From NCBI RefSeq assembly GCF_000214355.1, contig NC_015577.1, positions 3,587,389 through 3,651,388 of the forward strand: a DNA stretch of 64,000 nt. Reading direction: 5' to 3'. A model generated the notes under the pieces. It was not told the DNA's origin. It ran no database searches and saw nothing but the letters and a program-made list of their open reading frames with translations. The position numbers were made by a program, and so were the translations under genes. Origin of the DNA: Leadbettera azotonutricia ZAS-9 (GTDB taxonomy: Bacteria; Spirochaetota; Spirochaetia; Treponematales; Breznakiellaceae). Below, piece after piece: positions 10,947 through 22,873 of the stretch; the stretch's first letter is position 1; every line of letters begins with the position of its first letter.

Positions 10947-11004
10947 CGTGTACCTCCGCTGGATTAGTTTAACATTATCCCTTGTATCTGTCATCGCTAC
11001 CGGA

Positions 11005-11221
11005 GGCAGCCAAGGGCGGAGTTATGCAGCTTATCAAGGAACTTTCCAACGACTGGCTTGCCCGGGGAGTCAATGTAAACTGCATAGCTCCGGGCTATAT
11101 GGCCACCGACATGAACGAAGCCCTTCTGGCGAACGAAACCAGGTTCGCCCAGATCAGCGCCCGGATTCCTGCCAACAGATGGGGAACTGGCGCCGACATG
11201 AAAGGTTGTCAAAATTTTTAG
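11005..11221 (+). pseudogene. C-terminal fragment of a short-chain dehydrogenase (KduD-like)
   Basis: Reads AAKGGVMQLIKELSNDW, then GVNVNCIAPGYMATDMNEAL and IPANRWGTGADMKG, which is the part after the catalytic Tyr-x-x-x-Lys of a classical SDR, closest in pattern to 2-deoxy-D-gluconate 3-dehydrogenase. The lysine region is kept but the tyrosine and the whole nucleotide-binding half are gone. The 3' end is also lost: after DMKG the frame runs into AT-rich sequence and stops at 11221. The fragment is cut on both sides, so 11205-11221 probably marks the left edge of inserted DNA. Confidence 0.8.
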
Positions 11222-11298
11222 AGATATTAGAGAATTCATGAACTGAATCAACCTGTTATAAACAATATTTCTATTAAAATTCTGAAAAATTTTCGCTC

Positions 11299-11315
11299 GC
11301 GACATCAAGTGTCGT
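11299..11315. repeat. short palindrome, left copy of a pair bracketing the capsid operon
   Basis: GCGACATCAAGTGTCGT forms a five-base-pair hairpin. A close relative (14 of 17 bases identical) occurs at 15130-15146. Both copies follow a T-rich stretch (AAATTTT) and sit just outside the AT-rich four-gene operon. They could be recombination sites, ends of the island, or copies of a dispersed repeat. Confidence 0.5.
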
Positions 11316-11333: not shown

Positions 11334-11377
11334 TTGATAGTTATCATTGAAAATGATAAAATCATTATCGAAGGTGG
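11334..11377 (+). promoter_or_regulatory. promoter-operator and RBS of the capsid operon
   Basis: TTGATA (11334-11339), a 17-bp spacer and TAAAAT (11357-11362) form a good sigma-70-type promoter. A perfect inverted repeat TTATCATT (11341-11348), GAA, AATGATAA (11352-11359) fills the spacer. A further half-site-like TCATTATC lies at 11362-11369. The arrangement resembles a repressor site; the half-sites are Fur-like in composition but not a full Fur box. AAGGTGG (11371-11377) is the RBS for the ATG at 11384. Confidence 0.65.
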
Positions 11378-11383
11378 ATAAAT

Positions 11384-11635
11384 ATGACTATAGGTAAATG
11401 GTATAACTGCTGTAAAGAAAACATGGAAGGAGAAAGATGCTTGTTCTGTGAAAACTTAAATTATTTCTATCATTCTGATGAAATTGATTTTGGCGTTCAT
11501 GAAAAATGGTTTACTTCTCAGCATTTTAAGGCCGAATTATGGATTCCTTCTCAAAAACCCATCCATTTACCAGTTATGACTCATTTGTTTGATGTTTTAT
11601 TTCAAAGCGATTCAGAAAACCAAGGGGGAATTTAA
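11384..11635 (+). CDS. unknown 83-residue protein, first gene of the capsid operon
   Basis: I do not recognise this protein. It has two cysteine pairs near the N-terminus (YNCCKENMEGERCLFCENL) that could hold a metal, then an aromatic segment and LPVMTHLFDVLFQ. The ATG has AAGGTGG seven bases upstream and its own promoter-operator. The stop overlaps the next ATG by one base (TAATG), so the two are translationally coupled. Base composition is strongly AT-rich like the rest of the operon and unlike the mannosidase upstream. A metal-binding role is only a guess. Confidence 0.7.
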   Translation: MTIGKWYNCCKENMEGERCLFCENLNYFYHSDEIDFGVHEKWFTSQHFKAELWIPSQKPIHLPVMTHLFDVLFQSDSENQGGI

Positions 11636-12366
11636 TGGATCATTCTAAAGCATTTTTATGGAAAATAGATTTGAATTTAAGGAAAAATTGTTTTGATCAT
11701 AAGGATATATACAACATACTTGAAAACATCACAAAATACATTCCTACATTAGATGATTATGATACTTATAATGAGGATGATATCAACAATTATGTTTTAC
11801 GATCAAGTGGTAATGCTGCTGCCAGGTTTGAATTATCATCTGACTCAATTTCTTATATATTCTACCATTCTGAAAATGATGATGAGTGGTTGGATTATCC
11901 AAATGTAATTTTTGATATTATTGAGTCCTCTGATATTATAAATCCATTATCAATAAATTATATTGAGCGATGTTCTGCTAATATTTTTAGGACAAAAATA
12001 AATCATGGAAGAATAATTAAAGATTTATTTATAAGGAATTCAGAATTCTCAAAATTGATGGAAAGTAATCCTATTATGAATTTTACTCCCGATTTCAGTG
12101 TTCTATTAGATAAAAAATTATCTATTTATAATAGGATTAATTTTAAGTCTGATAGTTCTTTACGAGATGACATGAATGAAACATATGCTAATTCTAAGGA
12201 GTTAACCGTATGGTTCTCCATCATTAAAAAAATTGGTTTTAATCCACAATTTAATATTTCTGAATGTTTTCGGTTATTCGACGCATATTACTCTAAGGAA
12301 TCTGATAATTTCAAAAGAAATATAGAAAACCCGATTTATAGATACTTAAAAGAATATGATAATTAG
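11635..12366 (+). CDS. unknown 243-residue protein upstream of the capsid gene
   Basis: No family recognised. The sequence is acidic, rich in Asn, Asp, Ile and Tyr, and has no signal peptide, membrane segment or obvious catalytic motif. It begins MDHSKAFLWKIDLNLRKN, is preceded by AAGGGGGAA, overlaps the previous gene by one base and ends eight bases before the capsid start. Its fixed place before the capsid gene suggests a partner, cargo or assembly factor, but portal and protease hallmarks are absent. Confidence 0.7.
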   Translation: MDHSKAFLWKIDLNLRKNCFDHKDIYNILENITKYIPTLDDYDTYNEDDINNYVLRSSGNAAARFELSSDSISYIFYHSENDDEWLDYPNVIFDIIESSDIINPLSINYIERCSANIFRTKINHGRIIKDLFIRNSEFSKLMESNPIMNFTPDFSVLLDKKLSIYNRINFKSDSSLRDDMNETYANSKELTVWFSIIKKIGFNPQFNISECFRLFDAYYSKESDNFKRNIENPIYRYLKEYDN

Positions 12367-12374
12367 GAGGAATT

Positions 12375-13553
12375 ATGTCAATACTAAACATTGATAAAAT
12401 TTTAACTGAATTAAGAAATTACTATAGAGATGGTACAAATAGTCTATTATTTAGGAATTCCCCTGTTTTTAAGTCATTGGGAAAGACTACAATAAGTGAT
12501 AATAAATATTGTTATAGTGTTCTCTATGGAGATGGTGGTTCGGCATCAGGGAACTATGACGATGCAAAAGATAAGGCTTTAAAAAACAATAAATTTACTG
12601 ATATTACCGTTCCATGCAAAGAATTATATGGTTCCTATTTTGTTGATAGTACATCCATTAAAGATCAAACTGAAACAGAAGTTATTCATGGAGCAGAATT
12701 ATTTATTGCTACAGAATCATTAAGAAAATTAATTGCAACATCTTTTTATGGTATGGGATATGGAGAATTTTTTAAAGTTAAAAAAGAGATCGCTACCAAA
12801 AGTGGCATAATGAATAACGTACAATTATCTGAAGAATCAATAATGTCTATTCATGTTGGAACCACATTTCAAGGAACAATAGAGTCTGGATTTCCAGGAA
12901 ACAGATTAGGAAAATCAATAAATGTTATAACTAATATTTCGGAAAATGTTATTACTTTTTCAGCAACAGAAAATGAAGTCTACCCAGAAAATTCATATTT
13001 ATGTATATCTGGATGCAGGGATACTGATGGTACACCATTATTACCACAAGGATTATCTGCTTGGGTGCCATCAATATACGAAAGGAAAGATGAAAAATGG
13101 GATAGATATATAGAAAATGATTTTAATGGACTAAAAAGATCAAAAGATATAAAAAGACTAGCAGGAGAGTTTATTATTCAAGCAGAAAATGAAAAAATTT
13201 CTGATTGTATAAAAAGATTATATAGACTTGTTTATAGATCTGGCTCTAAACCAAATGTTATAGCTATAAACGACCGTGTTTATGCAGCGTTATTAAAAGA
13301 ACTAACTCCAGGTTATTATAAAAAAGAGACTTCACAAAAGGAAAGTCAGAATACTTCTATAGATCTTGATTTTGCAAGTCAATATCTTGATTATATTATA
13401 GAAGACCCATATTGCCCTTCGGATTTAATTTATATTTTTGATAATGACAAAATTGAATTTGTTTTTTTTAATCAAAAAAGGAAGATGTTTTTTCGAAGAA
13501 TAAAAATGATACGCGTATACATATTAGTACCCTATTATGTGCTGAAAGAATAA
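12375..13553 (+). CDS. orphan HK97-type phage major capsid protein, frameshifted near the C-terminus
   Basis: A 392-residue product that follows the layout of a tailed-phage major capsid family: an N-terminal arm (LRNYYRDGTNSLLFRNSPVF), E-loop-like GDGGSASGNYDDAKDKALK, spine-helix region ATESLRKLIATSFYGMGYGE, a beta domain ending SYLCISGCRD, then GLSAWVPSIY, SKPNVIAINDRVYAALLKEL and DYIIEDPYCPSDLIYIFD. These correspond in order to segments of capsid proteins from phages of proteobacteria. The RBS AGGAGG is clear. A run of five A at 13502-13506 seems to have lost one base: the -1 frame continues IHISTLLCAERINMGSS and stops at 13651, giving a better capsid end (~425 residues). There are no terminase, portal, protease or tail genes nearby. 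Strongly AT-rich. Confidence 0.85.
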   Translation: MSILNIDKILTELRNYYRDGTNSLLFRNSPVFKSLGKTTISDNKYCYSVLYGDGGSASGNYDDAKDKALKNNKFTDITVPCKELYGSYFVDSTSIKDQTETEVIHGAELFIATESLRKLIATSFYGMGYGEFFKVKKEIATKSGIMNNVQLSEESIMSIHVGTTFQGTIESGFPGNRLGKSINVITNISENVITFSATENEVYPENSYLCISGCRDTDGTPLLPQGLSAWVPSIYERKDEKWDRYIENDFNGLKRSKDIKRLAGEFIIQAENEKISDCIKRLYRLVYRSGSKPNVIAINDRVYAALLKELTPGYYKKETSQKESQNTSIDLDFASQYLDYIIEDPYCPSDLIYIFDNDKIEFVFFNQKRKMFFRRIKMIRVYILVPYYVLKE

Positions 13554-13651
13554 ATATGGGCAGTTCTTTTATTACACTGAAAATACAAGGTAATATCTGC
13601 CTTTATGATACATCTAGTATCGGGGTATTAAAATTAATCAATGAATATTAA
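13502..13651 (+). other. apparent -1 frameshift and alternative C-terminus of the capsid gene
   Basis: At A5 (13502-13506) the zero frame goes on to MIRVYILVPYYVLKE and stops at 13553. Adding one A, or slipping back one base, gives NDTRIHISTLLCAER, then GSSFITLKIQGNICLYD and VLKLINEY, stopping at 13649-13651. The second reading uses the otherwise empty gap before the next gene. Programmed slippage, a mutation or a sequencing error are all possible. Confidence 0.6.
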
Positions 13652-13698
13652 TCATTATAAAAATTTGCTGATAATTATTTAGCAAAATCAGGAAAATC

Positions 13699-15021
13699 AT
13701 GTTTTTTAACACAATTAAAACTAAATTACGGAAACAAAAAATTCAATTTAATTTGAAAGAATCATTAAAACGTAATAACCAGCTATGGCAAGAAGAAGAA
13801 CTCATGAAAGAGGTACATCGAAAGCAAGAAGAACAATGGAGACAAGAGGAGCAGCAGAAGGAGGCCGAAGAAGAAAAAGAAGAACAATTGAGGGAACAGC
13901 AAGAACAACAAAAACAATTAAAAAAATGGATGGAAGAAAGGCTGCAAAAACAAAAGGAATATGAAGAAGCAGAAAAATGGGAACAGCAAGAGCAGCGAAA
14001 ACTGTTAGAGGAACTACGCCAAAAGAAACTCCATGAGCAAGAAGAGCAAAGAACGAACGAAAAACTCCACAGGGAAGCAGAGCGGCAAAAACCAGCAGAA
14101 CAACAGGAACAAGAAAAACAGAAAAGAGAGACAGAACAACAAAAGCAAGATGAATTATCAAACGAAAAAAAATTAAAAGGCGAGGAAAAATTAGGGAATT
14201 TTTTATATGATTTTTGTTCAGCTTATTTAGATAATGATATTTTTAAAATTTGTATAAAATTAAAAAATAAATTAGTAATCAACAATGTTATAAAATATGA
14301 CGATACTAATATAATACTCTGGTCTGCAGTAATTATATTTATTGTGTGTCACATAAATAAAATCCCCATTCATTTTGAAACAATGCCAGATTATTGCAAA
14401 TTAGATAATTTGGATATTCAATTTAAAGTACACAAAATCATTTTTGAATTAGATTTAAGCAATAATCAGGAATTAATCGAAACCATGGATTCTGAAAAAC
14501 GATGTATGCAGCATCAAGAATGGGAAGAAGAGCAAAAAACCCTGAAAAAGAACCGAGAAATTGAAAAACAGCGTGAGCGTGAAGAAAAAGCAAAACTATA
14601 CAAACAAAAACAGGAAGAAGAACAAAGAAGAGAGGGAGAACGCCGGAGACAAGAAGAACAACGACGCCAAGAAGAACATCGCAAATATGAACAGCAGCAA
14701 CGAGAAGAAGAACAGCAGCGTCAAAAAGAAAGAATGCGACAAGAATATCAAAAGCATCAAGATGGTGAACAATATGAATATAAACGAAGAAATGAATACA
14801 GAAGATCAAATTTTCGATATTCGGATGCAGAAACGAAAAAACATTGCGAAATTTTACGACTCTCTTTTAGTCTAACTAAAGAAGAGATTAAGAAAGCATA
14901 TAAAATTCAAATGAAAAAATATCATCCTGATATTAATAAGAATACAGAAGAATGCACTGAAATGGCAAAAAAAATTAACGCCGCAAAAGACTATCTTTAT
15001 AAATGGATTGAAAATCAATGA
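13699..15021 (+). CDS. coiled-coil protein with C-terminal J domain
   Basis: A 440-residue protein in four parts. Residues ~15-160 are a Glu/Gln/Lys-rich coiled coil. Residues ~165-255 are a compact segment (LGNFLYDFCSAYLDNDIF, then TNIILWSAVIIFIVCHINK) of unknown fold. Residues ~265-370 are a second coiled coil. Residues ~373-438 are a J domain with KKYHPDINK. The HPD tripeptide means it can stimulate an Hsp70 ATPase. J domains are normally N-terminal, so the order is unusual. It is the last gene of the capsid operon and a terminator follows. A structural or scaffolding rod that recruits DnaK is a reasonable inference; phages such as lambda need DnaK-DnaJ for replication and some depend on chaperones for capsid assembly. 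Confidence 0.75.
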   Translation: MFFNTIKTKLRKQKIQFNLKESLKRNNQLWQEEELMKEVHRKQEEQWRQEEQQKEAEEEKEEQLREQQEQQKQLKKWMEERLQKQKEYEEAEKWEQQEQRKLLEELRQKKLHEQEEQRTNEKLHREAERQKPAEQQEQEKQKRETEQQKQDELSNEKKLKGEEKLGNFLYDFCSAYLDNDIFKICIKLKNKLVINNVIKYDDTNIILWSAVIIFIVCHINKIPIHFETMPDYCKLDNLDIQFKVHKIIFELDLSNNQELIETMDSEKRCMQHQEWEEEQKTLKKNREIEKQREREEKAKLYKQKQEEEQRREGERRRQEEQRRQEEHRKYEQQQREEEQQRQKERMRQEYQKHQDGEQYEYKRRNEYRRSNFRYSDAETKKHCEILRLSFSLTKEEIKKAYKIQMKKYHPDINKNTEECTEMAKKINAAKDYLYKWIENQ

Positions 15022-15055
15022 AAAGATTAAGTAGTATCATTCAGAAAATTCCTAT

Positions 15056-15082
15056 AATGTATACTTTTTTATACATTTTTTA
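15056..15082 (+). terminator. intrinsic terminator of the capsid operon
   Basis: AATGTATA (15056-15063) pairs perfectly with TATACATT (15070-15077) across a six-base loop, followed by TTTTA. It lies 35 bases after the J-domain gene stop. The stem is AT-only apart from two pairs, so efficiency may be modest. Confidence 0.55.
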
Positions 15083-15129
15083 CTATTAATCCTCGATTTT
15101 TACAAAAAAAGCTTAAGAAATTTTTAAAC

Positions 15130-15146
15130 GCGACATTAGATGTCGT
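15130..15146. repeat. short palindrome, right copy of the pair bracketing the capsid operon
   Basis: GCGACATTAGATGTCGT has perfect six-base arms (15131-15136 and 15140-15145). It matches the copy at 11299-11315 in 14 of 17 bases, in the same orientation as far as a palindrome can show. Base composition rises towards the chromosomal average to its right. Confidence 0.5.
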
Positions 15147-15234: not shown

Positions 15235-16161
15235 ATGAAAATGAAATTTTACGGAGTGCGCGGCAGCTATCCTACCCCGGACGCAAGAATGATGGGCTAT
15301 GGCGGAAAGACCGCATCAGTAGCTTTCTTCAATGAAAACAGTAAAGGAAAAACAGTACCCCTTTTCATTGATGCTGGCAACGGTATTGTTACCGCTGGTC
15401 AAGAACTCATGAAGGGGCTGTTCGACGGGTCAGTAAATACTACTTTCCCCATTCTCTTTACCCACCTGCACCCTGATCATACGGAAGGGTTTACCTTTTT
15501 CGCCCCCAACTTCCTGCCTCAAGTAACCCTTTATTTACTGGGTATGGAAACCCTCAAAAAAAACGTGGGCGCAGTATTGAAGCAGAAAATGCTTCCGCCT
15601 ACATATCCCATTGAATATCGCGACCTAAAATCATACCGCAACCACGGGGTATTAAGTGATGGTCAAAGAATTGCCATAACTGCAAGTGGTATTCCTATCC
15701 CGTATACCGATACCGCTGCAAAAGCAAACAAAGACGAACTTGTCTATATCGTAGACGTGATGCAGTCCTTTGCCCCGTCGCACCCCCAGCAAGGCGCCCT
15801 TTATTTCAAGGTTACCGATGCTAAAACATCGAAATCCGTTGCTTGTATATGGGATATTGAAAGTCATACCGGCGGTGATATGAGAGTAATCAATTTCGCC
15901 AAAGGCTGTGATTATATGATCCACGATACCCAATATACTGACGAAGAATATTACAGCAATAAAATGATTGTTCAAGGCTTCGGCCATTCAACTTACAATA
16001 TGGCAATTGAAAATGCTACAAAAGCCGGTATTGGTACGCTTATACCTTTTCATTACAACCCTAACCATACTGACGAAAAATTGAATGAAATATTCAATAA
16101 TTTCAAAGACAAAAGTATATTGCAGTTTATGGCTAAAGAAGGAATGGCAATAGAGATATAA
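15235..16161 (+). CDS. metallo-beta-lactamase-fold hydrolase
   Basis: A 308-residue MBL-fold protein. It begins KMKFYGVRGSYPTPDARMMG, as in the cyclic-nucleotide phosphodiesterase/RNase Z-like branch, then FIDAGNGIV and the zinc motif THLHPDH (about residues 76-82). The later metal residues are visible as CIWDIESH, YMIHDTQYTDEEY and FGHSTYNMA. It is cytoplasmic; the substrate is likely a phosphodiester or another small ester but cannot be named. The ATG follows GAAGGAGC. Base composition is intermediate between the AT-rich genes on either side, so it may have a different origin from the capsid operon. A strong terminator follows. Confidence 0.85.
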   Translation: MKMKFYGVRGSYPTPDARMMGYGGKTASVAFFNENSKGKTVPLFIDAGNGIVTAGQELMKGLFDGSVNTTFPILFTHLHPDHTEGFTFFAPNFLPQVTLYLLGMETLKKNVGAVLKQKMLPPTYPIEYRDLKSYRNHGVLSDGQRIAITASGIPIPYTDTAAKANKDELVYIVDVMQSFAPSHPQQGALYFKVTDAKTSKSVACIWDIESHTGGDMRVINFAKGCDYMIHDTQYTDEEYYSNKMIVQGFGHSTYNMAIENATKAGIGTLIPFHYNPNHTDEKLNEIFNNFKDKSILQFMAKEGMAIEI

Positions 16162-16227: not shown

Positions 16228-16905
16228 ATGAATAATTATGATATCCTTGGCGTACAATATAATGCAAGTATTAATGAAATCAGAAAAGCTTATAAAAGAC
16301 TTGTATTGCAATATCATCCGGATTTAAATAAATCCACGGATGCATATTCTAAATTCCTCGAAATCCATGAGGCATATGAGTCGATAGTAAATAATGCTGT
16401 ATTTAATGGCTCGGAAACATTTGATGATGAGTCATTTTATGAATATAGTACTCCATTCGAAAATATTGATGAATGGTGTGATATTGATCTTTCTGATATA
16501 ACTGTTGAAGAAGCAAAAACAAAAACTTTGAGGCTTTTAAGATTGTTAAGAAAGTATTTTCCCATAAATACTGAGTCAGATTATCATAAAACAAGACAAT
16601 GGATAATTGATGGATGGGAATATATTTTTGATATATATATGCGCGTTGAAGGAAATGGTTGGTATTATGCTAGAAAAATAGGAAAACCTTATCATGATAA
16701 ATTATATAAATATTTTTACAAGAATTCACAAACTTTTCAGCTAGATTATGTTTTAAAGATAATTGGTCGACTAGAATATAATCTTATAAACTGGGATACT
16801 AAAAAGAAAGTAAAACCAAATAGTCATAGGTTAGAATTATACCAATATAGCGAAAAACATCAGAAGAAGTGGTTATTTGAATTGCCAATCTATTTTAAAT
16901 TATAA
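16228..16905 (+). CDS. J-domain (DnaJ-like) protein
   Basis: A 225-residue protein with an N-terminal J domain: [20 protein letters not shown], then [11 protein letters not shown] with HPD at residues 30-32. The rest ([20 protein letters not shown] to ELPIYFKL) has no Gly/Phe linker or zinc domain, so it is a class C J protein that would recruit DnaK to one specific client. The RBS AAGGAGG is strong. The gene is AT-rich. The second J protein 1.2 kb upstream (13699-15021) carries its J domain at the other end. Its client is unknown; no Hsp70 gene is in the window. Confidence 0.85.
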
Positions 16906-18639: not shown

Positions 18640-19857
18640 TCATTCCAGCTTAGTTTCTTGCCCAATCAATAAATCATCAGTATAATATGAATGTTCACCA
18701 TTTTCGTCCTTCCAATATATTAAATTCATTTTACTGCTTTTAAGATTTTTTTTCATATCATCACTTAATTCTTGGGCTTTTTTGATATCATCATTTAGCA
18801 TTGTTTTAAAATTTTCACTCTCCCTGCCAAATTCAGCAGATTTTTTTTCCAAGTCTTCTCTTTCTTCTCTTCTTCCCAATATTGAAAAATTCTTTTGCCA
18901 CCAACTCATTTGATTAATTGTATCAGACATTTTTGTAGAAATATCCTTTATTTCTTCAGAGTTGTCTTTTATTTCTCCCCATAGTTTATTATAAAAAGCG
19001 ATTTTTTCACTAAACCTAATCGCTGATTCACTCATATAACTCGGATCTTCTTGAATAGTTACTTTTAACCTCAACAAATCTATTCTCATATCCAGCATTG
19101 AAGACATAATTGCAAAATAGGCATCCATTTTTTTAAATTTTAAATCATCAGATGTTGTTGTTTCATTTATTTTTTGACTTGAATACAAATATTTATATCG
19201 TTCAAAAATAGGATTAATACTATTTTCTAATAAGTAAAGTCTTATAAGCATTTCATTTGTAAATTGATTACTGTTAGAAAATTGATCTTCTATATCTTTA
19301 AGACGATTAAAAGCACTTATTATTGTACCAATTTCTGTTGCTTCATTTCGTTGTATGCTTCTGTCGATGACTGCTTTTATATCATCTAATTTTTTATTTA
19401 TCGTCGCAAATTCACTCATGATAGCTATAGTTGAAATAGCTTGAAAAGCAATTAAAGGAGCAATAACTGGTATGACAGCTCCTGTGGCGGCAATAAATGG
19501 CGCTTGCGCAACAATTCTACCCGCCTCCATTACAGCGCTGCCTACCCCGTTTCCTATAGTCATTAATGTTGCCGGATTCGCAGTTGCCATAAATAGCTGT
19601 GTGGATGCAACAGTAGAAGCACCCAAAGAACCTGCTCCGATGCCAATCATAGATAGGATATTTTTTGAAGATATTTTACCCCCATTTTCTATATAGCTGC
19701 CTTTAGTAAAAAGATTTCCATTGAGTTTTTCAATAATCTGATCTCTTATGTTACCTTCAAAGGTAAGTAAGGCTACTTCTGAATTGTCATTTTGATTATT
19801 GAATTTTTGTGCTACTATTTGGCTTTTCTGTTTTTTCCTAAAAAATGGTAATTTCAT
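18640..19857 (-). CDS. unknown membrane-inserting/coiled-coil protein
   Basis: A 405-residue protein, not recognised. After a basic start (MKLPFFRKKQKSQ) comes a Gly/Ala-rich hydrophobic stretch at ~residues 66-150 (MIGIGAGSLGASTVAS, then AATGAVIPVIAPLIAFQAIS) that could cross or insert into a membrane as a helical hairpin. From there to ~380 it is helical and charged, with coiled-coil character (KKLDDIKAVIDRSIQRNE, EEREDLEKKSAEFGRES). A hydrophobic hairpin next to long helices recalls alpha-helical pore-forming proteins, which is speculation. It has its own RBS (GGAGG) and follows the WYL regulator gene on the same strand. AT-rich. The IS256-family element sits just past its stop. Confidence 0.65.
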   Translation of the reverse strand: MKLPFFRKKQKSQIVAQKFNNQNDNSEVALLTFEGNIRDQIIEKLNGNLFTKGSYIENGGKISSKNILSMIGIGAGSLGASTVASTQLFMATANPATLMTIGNGVGSAVMEAGRIVAQAPFIAATGAVIPVIAPLIAFQAISTIAIMSEFATINKKLDDIKAVIDRSIQRNEATEIGTIISAFNRLKDIEDQFSNSNQFTNEMLIRLYLLENSINPIFERYKYLYSSQKINETTTSDDLKFKKMDAYFAIMSSMLDMRIDLLRLKVTIQEDPSYMSESAIRFSEKIAFYNKLWGEIKDNSEEIKDISTKMSDTINQMSWWQKNFSILGRREEREDLEKKSAEFGRESENFKTMLNDDIKKAQELSDDMKKNLKSSKMNLIYWKDENGEHSYYTDDLLIGQETKLE

Positions 19858-19920
19858 AATTTCCTCCTGATAATATGTTACTATAATTTTGAATCATGTA
19901 TGCAGCATCCTATTTTATAG

Positions 19921-20907
19921 TTATTTATACTTCTTCCCTATCATCTCCACCTCCTCCCTCACCATCTTAACAAGTTCCGGCGGGTTCAAGACCTTCACCG
20001 TACGCCCCTGGCTTAAAACCCAGCGAAGCACATCAGGGAGCTGAGTTGTGGTAAATTTAACCAGAACCGAGCCATCCTCATTCTCCGTTATTTCCTGGGT
20101 TTCATGCCATTGACGCTCTAAAGCAAACGTTCTTACTTCATTATCAAACAAGAACTCTACAGTATATGGAGTACGCCGGGATGCCCAAATTCCCATCTGT
20201 TTATCAAAAAAATCATTAGGGTTAAAATCAGAAGGGATATCGAATACCTTATTAGTTATTACTACCTTCTTGATACGAGAAAATGAAAACACCCTCATTT
20301 CTTTTTTTTCATGACTAAAACCCAGAATATACCAGTTTCCACGATGGCAAATCGCATGATAGGGATCCATCATTCTATTCCTGTCAATATCGCCATTTAA
20401 CCGCAAAAAATCAAAACTTAATGCTTTTTTTGTTTGTAACGCTGTTATAATAGTATTAAAGGTAGTAACATCTATTTTACTTGGCTGGTCGGTAACAAAA
20501 CTGATATGAGAATTTAAAAAACCCGTATCTACTGAAACATTATTAGGTAATGAGCGTATAATTTTTTCAAAAATAATTTTGAGATTCTTTTCAAGCGGCG
20601 TATTACGATATTGATCAAGCATAGGCTCAAAAATGGCAAGAGAAAACAATTCACCTTCTGTAAGCATAACACTTTTTATAAAGAAATTATCATCAGTATA
20701 GTAATAACCCCGATGGGTGGTACTATATTCAATCGGCGCATCATACATGACCCTTAAGAATTCAATATCCCTCTGTATTGTCCGAGGATTCACTTCAACT
20801 TTTTTTGCCAGTTGAGCGACAGTTGAATATTTACCGGATCTGATTTCCGCATCAATCTCAAAAACGCGCCACGAGCGGACTTTTTCTTCAAATTTTTTAG
20901 CTTTCAT
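19921..20907 (-). CDS. WYL-domain transcriptional regulator
   Basis: A 328-residue regulator. The N-terminal winged helix reads STVAQLAKKVEVNPRTIQRD. The WYL domain follows (DPYHAICHRGNWYILGFSHE with the W-Y-I/L core, then MRVFSFSRIKKV), and the WCX extension ends it (TPYTVEFLFDNEVRTFA to MVREEVEMIGKKYK). WYL domains bind nucleic-acid or nucleotide ligands, and the family often controls phage-defence operons. Here it lies in a minus-strand group with a GmrSD-type nuclease upstream and a membrane/coiled-coil protein downstream. GAGGCGGTGG inside the preceding small ORF is its RBS, so the two are coupled. Confidence 0.9.
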   Translation of the reverse strand: MKAKKFEEKVRSWRVFEIDAEIRSGKYSTVAQLAKKVEVNPRTIQRDIEFLRVMYDAPIEYSTTHRGYYYTDDNFFIKSVMLTEGELFSLAIFEPMLDQYRNTPLEKNLKIIFEKIIRSLPNNVSVDTGFLNSHISFVTDQPSKIDVTTFNTIITALQTKKALSFDFLRLNGDIDRNRMMDPYHAICHRGNWYILGFSHEKKEMRVFSFSRIKKVVITNKVFDIPSDFNPNDFFDKQMGIWASRRTPYTVEFLFDNEVRTFALERQWHETQEITENEDGSVLVKFTTTQLPDVLRWVLSQGRTVKVLNPPELVKMVREEVEMIGKKYK

Positions 20908-20913
20908 TTAGAC

Positions 20914-21057
20914 CTATACCACCGCCTCGTACTTCCCAGCCTTAATCTGGTCAAAAATCTGCTCTACCTGGGCTTTAAGCTCCGCATACCCCGGAGTATC
21001 AGGCGCATAATAGAAGCCAAACATTGTCATTCCAAGATAAATTTTAGACTTTTCCAT
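20914..21057 (-). CDS. small unknown protein (47 residues) coupled to the WYL gene
   Basis: An ATG at 21057 gives MEKSKIYLGMTMFGFYYAPD, then TPGYAELKAQVEQIFDQIK and AGKYEAVV, stopping at 20914, six bases before the WYL start. Its 3' end carries the purine-rich RBS used by the WYL gene. No RBS of its own is clear. It may be a genuine small protein or the surviving tail of a longer one. Function unknown. Confidence 0.4.
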   Translation of the reverse strand: MEKSKIYLGMTMFGFYYAPDTPGYAELKAQVEQIFDQIKAGKYEAVV

Positions 21058-21133
21058 TAACAAAAATATACCACAAAATCCCATTCCTAAAAGCCATTTA
21101 CAATTAGTAGACGAAGTGCCCTCCCATATTTTA

Positions 21134-22873
21134 TTATTTTATTAAATTATTTTCATTAAGGAAGGATATAAAATTATCTATTATTTGGCGATTTCTATTT
21201 TCAATGTTTTCTTCAGTGAAATCTATGTTACCTTCTGATAATTTTACTAATTCCTTAATTTGAGTCCCCTTCTTCAGTTGTCCCTTACTGTTGGTAAAAC
21301 CTTGATAATATTTTATCTTGTCCGAAAATCTGTAATCGGATGCACGAATGTTAATTCTTTTTTCAAGTAAAGCCTTATTTCCAAGAGATTCAAGATTCTT
21401 TTCGTTCTTTAGAGTTTTATGATTTTCCTGACGTTTTCTTGCAAAAATATGTTCTATCTCAAAGATAGTCTCTGCTGACGGTAATGATTGCTCATTATTG
21501 GTGAATGCCCACCACGTCAACATTGATTTCGTGATTGGTCTGCCATTACTAAATACATAATGTTCAAAAGCATTTTTTGTATTATTAAAATCAAACTTAT
21601 AACCGGCAAATTCTACCGATTTGCCATTTACAATATTTAACATTTCTGCAAATACCGGTGTTCGCAAAGCATTCACTCCGGGATTAACTATTGCATAAGT
21701 CCATATAAAAGCAATAATTTTAGTTAGGAAATTTTCAAACTTATTATCATCAAGTTTTTCATTTGAATCTTTATTATGCATAAAATAAACCGACACAAAA
21801 TAATTCCACATCCCATTGGGAGCATAGTTTAATGTAAATAATTTTCGTAAAATTTTATCAGAAAACCTTTCACTATTTTGATTTGACACATCTTGCCAAA
21901 AATTAGCAAGAATCTTAAGATTATTAAATGTGTCGGCTCGTTTAAGTAAACTATATTTATCGCGTTCATAAAATTTACGAAGTGCTTCTGTCGTACTGGA
22001 TTTGATATCTCTTTTTGCACGTTCATAATACATATACCTTGTAAACAATTCGTCCATTGGGGTTCCGGTTGTTGGATAAAATATTTCCCCACATATTTCC
22101 TCAAGTTCCTTCCATTGAACAATAAAACTATCTTTTTCCCCTTTCTCACCATAGAATTTATAAAATTGTGCCTTGAATATGTCAGCATCTGAAAGAGGCA
22201 ATCCGCGATCATTAAGAGTTGAAAAAATTCTCAGTGCAGTATCCTGGGATTCTGCATCAATTGGCAGTAGAATACAATTGCCCAATATCCTTGCCGGAAG
22301 ATATGCAAAATATGCAGGATACTCTGATAAAAATTGATCGATTTTTTCCTGAAAAAAACGAAAATTCTTTGCATAATTACTTTTTTGTTCTTTCTTTACT
22401 TCACCATTTTTCAAAATTTCAAGAAACTCTTCTTTATCATTATCGGTTGCCACTTCTGAATTTATTTTCAATTTATTTACATCTGCTATTCCAAAGGCAT
22501 TCGTTTTCCAAATACATTGCGAAATCATCTCTCGTGTTTTTTTAGAATTTTCGTCTTGCATTTTACCAAATTTAACATAAAAAGCCCGCAACAATAGCAT
22601 TAAAGTAGTCAGACGCTGTTGTCCATCGATTATCTCCATTTTGTCATTTTCGTTTTTATAAGTTACAATAGAACCTAGAAAATATTCCTCATTATCATTA
22701 AAATTTTCATAATTATTATCAGGAATAGCAAAAGAAAAAATGTCATCCCAAAGTGTTTGACACTGCTCTTCCTCCCATGCATAAGGTCTTTGATAGTCGG
22801 GAATAAGAAAGTCAGACTTCTTATCTGAGAATAATAACATAATGGTCTTTTGATCTACGTTTAGTTTAGACAT
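21134..22873 (-). CDS. GmrSD-type nuclease (DUF262 + DUF1524)
   Basis: A 579-residue single-chain protein of the GmrS-GmrD type, modification-dependent (type IV) restriction enzymes that cut DNA with glucosylated or otherwise modified bases. The N-terminal DUF262 part has FLIPDYQRPYAWEEEQ and the ParB-like nucleotide motif IIDGQQRLTTLMLLLRAF. The DUF262 core goes on with ILPIDAESQDTALRIFSTLNDRG without its first bases in question. The C-terminal DUF1524 domain has EIEHIFARKRQE, the His-Me nuclease motif, then LESLGNKALLEKRINI. No break is seen. There is no RBS; the promoter -10 ends seven bases before the ATG. It is the first gene of the minus-strand group with the WYL regulator. Confidence 0.88.
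   Translation of the reverse strand: MSKLNVDQKTIMLLFSDKKSDFLIPDYQRPYAWEEEQCQTLWDDIFSFAIPDNNYENFNDNEEYFLGSIVTYKNENDKMEIIDGQQRLTTLMLLLRAFYVKFGKMQDENSKKTREMISQCIWKTNAFGIADVNKLKINSEVATDNDKEEFLEILKNGEVKKEQKSNYAKNFRFFQEKIDQFLSEYPAYFAYLPARILGNCILLPIDAESQDTALRIFSTLNDRGLPLSDADIFKAQFYKFYGEKGEKDSFIVQWKELEEICGEIFYPTTGTPMDELFTRYMYYERAKRDIKSSTTEALRKFYERDKYSLLKRADTFNNLKILANFWQDVSNQNSERFSDKILRKLFTLNYAPNGMWNYFVSVYFMHNKDSNEKLDDNKFENFLTKIIAFIWTYAIVNPGVNALRTPVFAEMLNIVNGKSVEFAGYKFDFNNTKNAFEHYVFSNGRPITKSMLTWWAFTNNEQSLPSAETIFEIEHIFARKRQENHKTLKNEKNLESLGNKALLEKRINIRASDYRFSDKIKYYQGFTNSKGQLKKGTQIKELVKLSEGNIDFTEENIENRNRQIIDNFISFLNENNLIK

Follow-up and report, generated by a model that had tools for sequence, protein, structure and literature searches.

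Results

The locus and its surroundings

The DNA considered here (the window) is a stretch of 64,000 nucleotides, positions 3587389-3651388 of the genome of Leadbettera azotonutricia ZAS-9, a single contig of 3,855,671 bases. Four open reading frames, all on the + strand, lie where the original prediction had placed them (Table 1), and they encode proteins of 83, 243, 392, and 440 amino acids. The first three are nearly contiguous, with a 1-bp overlap followed by an 8-bp gap, and their starts are preceded by the Shine-Dalgarno-like runs GGTGG, GGGGG, and GGAGG. The near-contiguity claimed for the whole set does not, however, extend to the gene encoding the 440-aa protein, which begins 145 bp after the capsid gene. 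That a single transcript covers all four genes is only assumed.

Table 1. Features of the four-gene unit and its borders (positions within the window)
Feature	Position	Strand	Basis
Left hairpin-forming palindrome, CGCGACATCAAGTGTCGT	11298..11315	.	genome pattern search, folding
Promoter-like TTGATA-17-TGATAAAAT overlapping palindrome TATCATTGAAAATGATA, then GGTGG ribosome-binding site	11334..11375	+	consensus matches only
83-aa orphan protein, cysteine cluster NCCKENMEGERCLFC	11384..11635	+	ORF and family searches
243-aa orphan protein	11635..12366	+	ORF; 1-bp overlap with 83-aa ORF
392-aa HK97-fold protein, phage-MCP-derived, C-terminally shortened	12375..13553	+	NF033394, relatives, fold
440-aa coiled-coil-like protein, weak DUF6398, C-terminal J domain	13699..15021	+	Pfam, composition
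AU-only terminator-like hairpin with U tract	~15056..15080	+	fold z -5.8
Right hairpin-forming palindrome, CGCGACATTAGATGTCGT, upstream of 308-aa metallo-beta-lactamase-fold gene	15129..15146	.	genome pattern search, folding
308-aa metallo-beta-lactamase-fold gene, 41% GC	15235-16161

A private promoter-operator had been claimed for the unit. A well-placed, extended -10 promoter-like site does exist (11334-11362), together with a palindrome; shuffled versions of the region, though, contain sites of this kind at least as often. The overlapping GATAAT-like palindromes (TATCATTGAAAATGATA and GATAAAATCATTATC) recall Fur-type metal-regulator boxes, which we take to be a resemblance and nothing further. 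The hairpin at the other end, claimed as a terminator, is terminator-like and, although made of A and U only, clearly nonrandom. Rfam gave no match.

Two near-identical palindromes bracket the unit. Among the matches listed in the 3.86-Mb genome, the pattern CGCGACATYARRTGTCGT, allowing at most one mismatch, is found only at 11298 and 15129, a uniqueness that is partly built in, as the pattern was derived from those two sites; 0.01 occurrences of CGACAN5TGTCG are expected per window. Both copies are in direct orientation and a transcription unit follows each of them, so that shared operators are as probable a reading as the ends of an element.

The claim that the genes are AT-rich unlike their flanks is correct for the left side, where the AT-rich block begins inside a truncated short-chain dehydrogenase (SDR) fragment (10997-11210). 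This fragment, identified by reading the translation, is likely a rearrangement scar. The claim fails on the right side, where AT-rich DNA is back at about 16 kb and continues to about 22.9 kb, broken by the 308-aa gene and an IS256 element. Since AT-rich DNA extends beyond the four genes, the unit belongs to a larger, mosaic island of about 11.7 kb. Beyond the unit, the island carries a 225-aa J-domain gene (AT-rich, 16228-16905, close to the four genes), an IS256-type transposase, and a minus-strand AT-rich block (18640-22873) encoding a 405-aa protein, a WYL-WCX regulator, and a GmrSD/DUF262 restriction protein. This last block has the appearance of a small defence module. Its GmrSD and WYL genes match defence models of PADLOC, and none of the four genes matches a PADLOC model below E 0.1. 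The neighbours are consistent with a defence island, but a defensive role of the capsid unit is not thereby demonstrated.

The predicted absence of phage genes was confirmed: no terminase, portal, tail, or integrase gene lies between 10.5 and 23.5 kb. A tblastn search of the same interval with the other genes of the relative phages described below gave nothing but two weak matches (E 0.002-0.005), both outside the unit, and no portal homologous to theirs appeared among the matches listed for the genome. With its signals intact, no portal, and no phage remnant in the unit, the gene is, as had been proposed, an orphan HK97 capsid gene outside any recognisable prophage. No second orphan copy was found in 394 genomes of the order, so the case is single, and with one genome only, purifying selection on the present form of the gene is not measurable. 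No paper on prophages of Leadbettera azotonutricia came up in the literature, nor one that pairs an orphan capsid with a J-domain protein.

Relatives of the 392-aa protein

Family match, homologues, and fold agree in making the 392-aa protein a relative of phage major capsid proteins (MCPs), as the original prediction of an HK97-type major capsid gene would have it. The protein matches NF033394 (capsid_maj_Podo, NCBIfam) over residues 6-368 (E 3.5e-8), but at 33 bits it falls below the curated cut-off of 80 bits. It is a distant relative of NF033394, outside the family as its curators delimit it. Pfam offered only a sub-threshold match to SU10_MCP, and no encapsulin family (e.g., PF04454) matched in either Pfam or NCBIfam. 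PHROGs gave no match, nor did plain tblastn against phage and plasmid records reveal any relative. The sole match among sequences of solved structures (2ekm, E 0.008) was taken as noise, as were profile matches to such sequences at E 0.7.

The first relative came from a genome search that turned up, in a genome of the Treponema family, a protein with 27% identity, and this led to two further proteins with 32% and 28% identity. When the three were aligned, the alignment brought in 36 viral contigs; scanning again with the closest of the relatives uncovered none nearer than 32%. Altogether, 25-32% identity to the 392-aa protein was seen in about 40 MCPs, from contigs of tailed phages and from (pro)phages of the Treponema family, and NF033394 is matched by 30 of the 30 relatives that were aligned. 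Their contigs are either viral, with lengths of up to 38 kb, or from the Treponema family, and the relatives examined adjoin genes encoding portal (phrog_156) and terminase (phrog_2), in one contig also integrase. The sequence relatives found are phage MCPs, and by sequence the 392-aa protein is not an encapsulin. The most fitting label for it is that of a phage MCP derivative that is divergent, shortened, and orphan.

Predicted structure and loss of presumed lattice parts

The AlphaFold model of the 392-aa protein (pTM 0.68, mean pLDDT 67) has the HK97 fold that the original prediction had proposed to look for, with the E-loop/P-domain parts at low confidence. Comparison of the whole chain with known structures placed phage capsids in the eight best rows, with Z scores of 11.6 (7f38), 10.0 (HK97 prohead II), and 9.3 (SU10), and capsids are among the top matches in BFVD. 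Pyruvate kinases came first in the Foldseek PDB list, but their alignment covers only a small beta-barrel (125-215), and the whole-chain aligner puts capsids first. The model also resembles the encapsulin 3dkt (Z 7.6). The model of a phage relative, though, scores Z 14-16 with many encapsulins, and so the fold match cannot tell encapsulins from phage MCPs.

In the HK97 fold, the A-domain forms the centre of the capsomer, while the E-loop and P-domain connect capsomers to one another. The 392-aa protein has not been eroded evenly. Ninety-three residues are conserved in phage, in the sense that at least 90% of the phage relatives have them in common, and it retains 51 of these, as compared to 79% for the lowest phage. 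Only 8 of 37 are retained in residues 37-111 and the C-terminus, as opposed to 43 of 56 elsewhere (Fisher p 1.8e-7), and the A-domain part has kept 34 of 44. The eroded regions would correspond to the E-loop/P-domain and to C-terminal lattice parts. The protein is also short, 392 amino acids against 447-495 in the phage relatives. According to the alignment, it is missing a C-terminal stretch of about 45 residues, as well as the C-terminal end, both present in all phage relatives, with a short strand-like segment left in place.

The models tell a similar story. In the eroded parts, pLDDT is mostly 26-46, versus mostly 70-92 in the model of a phage relative made with nearly the same alignment, where strands 73-90, 405-409, and 419-431 are confident. 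Nothing in the 392-aa model corresponds with confidence to the C-terminal strands (405-431). The protein has probably lost the ability to build a normal head.

Divergence and the open reading frame

In a tree with the phage relatives, the terminal branch of the 392-aa protein amounts to 3.48 changes per site, about 16 times the median of 0.22, the position of so long a row being unsure and the composition of the protein deviating from the others. One phage-context relative, L021, is long-branched as well (1.93). The divergence may predate the capture of the gene, having arisen in an unsampled phage lineage. Despite it, the frame of 392 codons (29% GC) has stayed open, with a chance of 6e-17 in random DNA of this composition, and codon-position bias is consistent with coding. 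Drift over so long a time would be expected to bring stops, and the open frame therefore argues against plain decay. The gene is probably still translated, and we infer long retention by selection.

Neighbouring genes

The original prediction saw the four genes as a self-contained operon and a dedicated capsid system, and proposed that the same gene order be sought in other spirochaetes. None of the genomes or contigs searched holds the four together a second time. The genes for the 83-, 243-, and 440-aa proteins are absent from the loci of all phage relatives, and the 83-aa protein has no relative in the phage collection. Searches of 383 other spirochaete genomes, of phages and plasmids, and of viral contigs gave no relative of the 243-aa gene. 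Among the matches listed, its only relative is a paralog, 40% identical, on the same chromosome (G000:C1:2195038-2195772), a lone gene of 35% GC in surroundings of about 53% GC, with no capsid or J gene nearby. The notion of a dedicated system of four genes is not supported, given the paralog that stands alone and the phage relatives that do without the other three. The 243-aa gene was considered as a phage scaffold protein and rejected, as it is unlike the 203- and 228-aa genes that precede the relatives' MCP. Neither Pfam nor NCBIfam recognised any enzyme family in the neighbouring genes.

The claim of a coiled-coil/J-domain protein after the capsid gene was borne out. In the 440-aa protein, two stretches rich in E, Q, K, and R (31-165 and 263-375) flank a weak DUF6398 segment (PF19935, E 3.2e-6), and a C-terminal J domain follows (PF00226, E 1.8e-11) with HPD at 409. 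J-domain genes are found separately in phages and also beside another head cassette of the same genome; the matches listed for the genome include eight to the J domain, six of them above cut-off. The J-domain protein is tied to the capsid protein by adjacency, and any link between them is conjectural.

Discussion

Origin and possible function of the 392-aa protein

The explanation we prefer, tentatively, is that a phage MCP was captured into a defence-like island and retained there as a protein that serves outside of a head. By hypothesis, an MCP gene of a tailed phage (of the podovirus-type NF033394 group) became detached from its phage and was kept in the AT-rich chromosomal island. Its product would retain the A-domain core and the inserted beta-barrel, and with them the ability to form capsomers, which, after the loss of much of the E-loop/P-domain and of the C-terminal strands, could no longer be joined into a shell. 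Such subunits or capsomers might act as a decoy: when a related phage infects, they would combine with its MCP, and head assembly would stall. The J-domain coiled-coil protein, if it is part of the unit, could direct such complexes to DnaK. Among specific actions we consider the decoy the likeliest, yet taken alone it is doubtful. More doubtful still is the full version, in which an MCP with its core kept and its lattice contacts gone was exapted as an assembly poison or sensor, together with a chaperone-recruiting J-domain protein, within a defence island.

The most serious competitor, a real possibility if a somewhat lesser one, is that the gene is a relic: all that survives of a phage that has decayed, brought or stranded by rearrangement next to unrelated AT-rich genes and drifting without function, its frame unbroken so far. 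This would account for the erosion of the lattice-forming parts and the lost C-terminus, for the single occurrence, and for the rearranged surroundings, with their SDR fragment and IS256 transposase. It does less well in explaining how 392 codons escaped any stop or frameshift at such divergence, why the A-domain has held on to most of its conserved residues, and why the translation signals are intact. The original prediction dismissed a relic on the grounds that it would not keep such signals. The signals are indeed intact, but the argument is weak by itself; the frame that stayed open despite extreme divergence provides a better one. On balance, we lean slightly towards exaptation and away from the decay of a relic.

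It is unlikely, though conceivable, that the protein still works as the MCP of a divergent phage or satellite lineage not sampled so far, an element with ends at 11298 and 15129 that borrows its terminase, portal, and tail. The bracketing palindromes, found nowhere else in the genome at one mismatch or fewer, would suit such an element, the two tail-less head cassettes described below indicate that capsid-bearing elements exist in this host, and the long branch of L021 shows that a relative in phage context may also diverge greatly. But the unit has no integrase, terminase, or portal of its own, both head cassettes have their own, unrelated MCPs, the C-terminal strands missing here are present in all relatives, and the palindromes may equally be operators. 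The domesticated shell of the original prediction, if read as an encapsulin-like nanocompartment made from a phage MCP with a neighbouring protein as cargo, is very improbable: the HK97 fold, the similarity to 3dkt, and an operon free of phage genes would fit, but the protein matches no encapsulin family in Pfam or NCBIfam, no enzyme cargo gene is recognised, the parts that make a shell lattice are lost, and the family of the 243-aa protein occurs without a capsid gene.

Comparison with known systems

The closest known proteins, the NF033394 MCPs, share with the 392-aa protein homology over residues 6-368, the inserted beta-barrel, the A-domain core, and the HK97 fold. They differ in being longer, in having the C-terminal strands and the E-loop/P-domain residues that it has mostly lost, and in that its gene adjoins no portal, terminase, or scaffold gene.

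Phage capsid genes have been reused as encapsulin shells. If, in the present case, the host kept the capsid core and stripped the lattice parts, then this would be another route of reuse, at the level of the capsomer, and it would point to a simple way of blocking phage head assembly. If the gene is only a relic, it calls for caution: an orphan capsid gene that is open and bears signals does not, taken alone, point to a system.

Three traits define encapsulins: HK97-fold shells, self-assembly, and cargo loading (PMC8346489). As with families 1-4 described there, the case here is one of a phage-derived HK97 fold outside a phage genome, in a short operon, but the 392-aa protein has neither family match nor recognised cargo enzyme, and it is nearest to phage MCPs. 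Nor is it of the form of family 4, which consists of the A-domain only, about 100 aa. The capsid-forming satellites called cf-PICIs encode, besides an MCP, a protease, portal, connectors, and both terminase subunits (PMC10690885). What the unit has in common with them is a small chromosomal element that includes a capsid gene and lacks tail genes, but of the gene set of a cf-PICI, integrase included, it has the MCP alone. Phage J-domain proteins (phrog_14336 and phrog_31004) also have the J domain in a phage-like context, and the J domain of the 440-aa protein matches phrog_14336 with E 3.6e-6. In the 440-aa protein, however, the domain forms the C-terminal end of a long chain, E/Q/K/R-rich and with weak DUF6398, for which no full-length relative was found.

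Other capsid cassettes in the genome

Two tail-less head cassettes lie elsewhere in the genome, one at G000:C1 ~1389935-1397545 (L082 14935-19866 and L083 9-2545) and the other at ~448145-453892 (L084 13145-18892). Both have the same order: terminase small, terminase large (phrog_2), portal (phrog_12), regulator, protease (phrog_80), and MCP (phrog_10), the assignments coming from PHROG scans for the first cassette and for the MCP of the second, and from ORF similarity for the rest of the second. Neither MCP is related to the 392-aa protein. The first cassette has an integrase (phrog_1), and the second lies beside an integrase fragment. The two look like capsid-forming phage satellites, and they match the description of cf-PICIs far better than does the unit containing the 392-aa gene.

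Beside the first cassette is a restriction cluster (L083 5366-11984, G000:C1 ~1400366-1406984) with methyltransferase and restriction subunits matching type III models, an Orf5/DUF262-type protein, and GC content down to 28%. Two Hsp70-like genes with GIDLGTT motifs, recognised by eye only, adjoin the integrase of the same cassette (L082 8595-12413, G000:C1 ~1383595-1387413).
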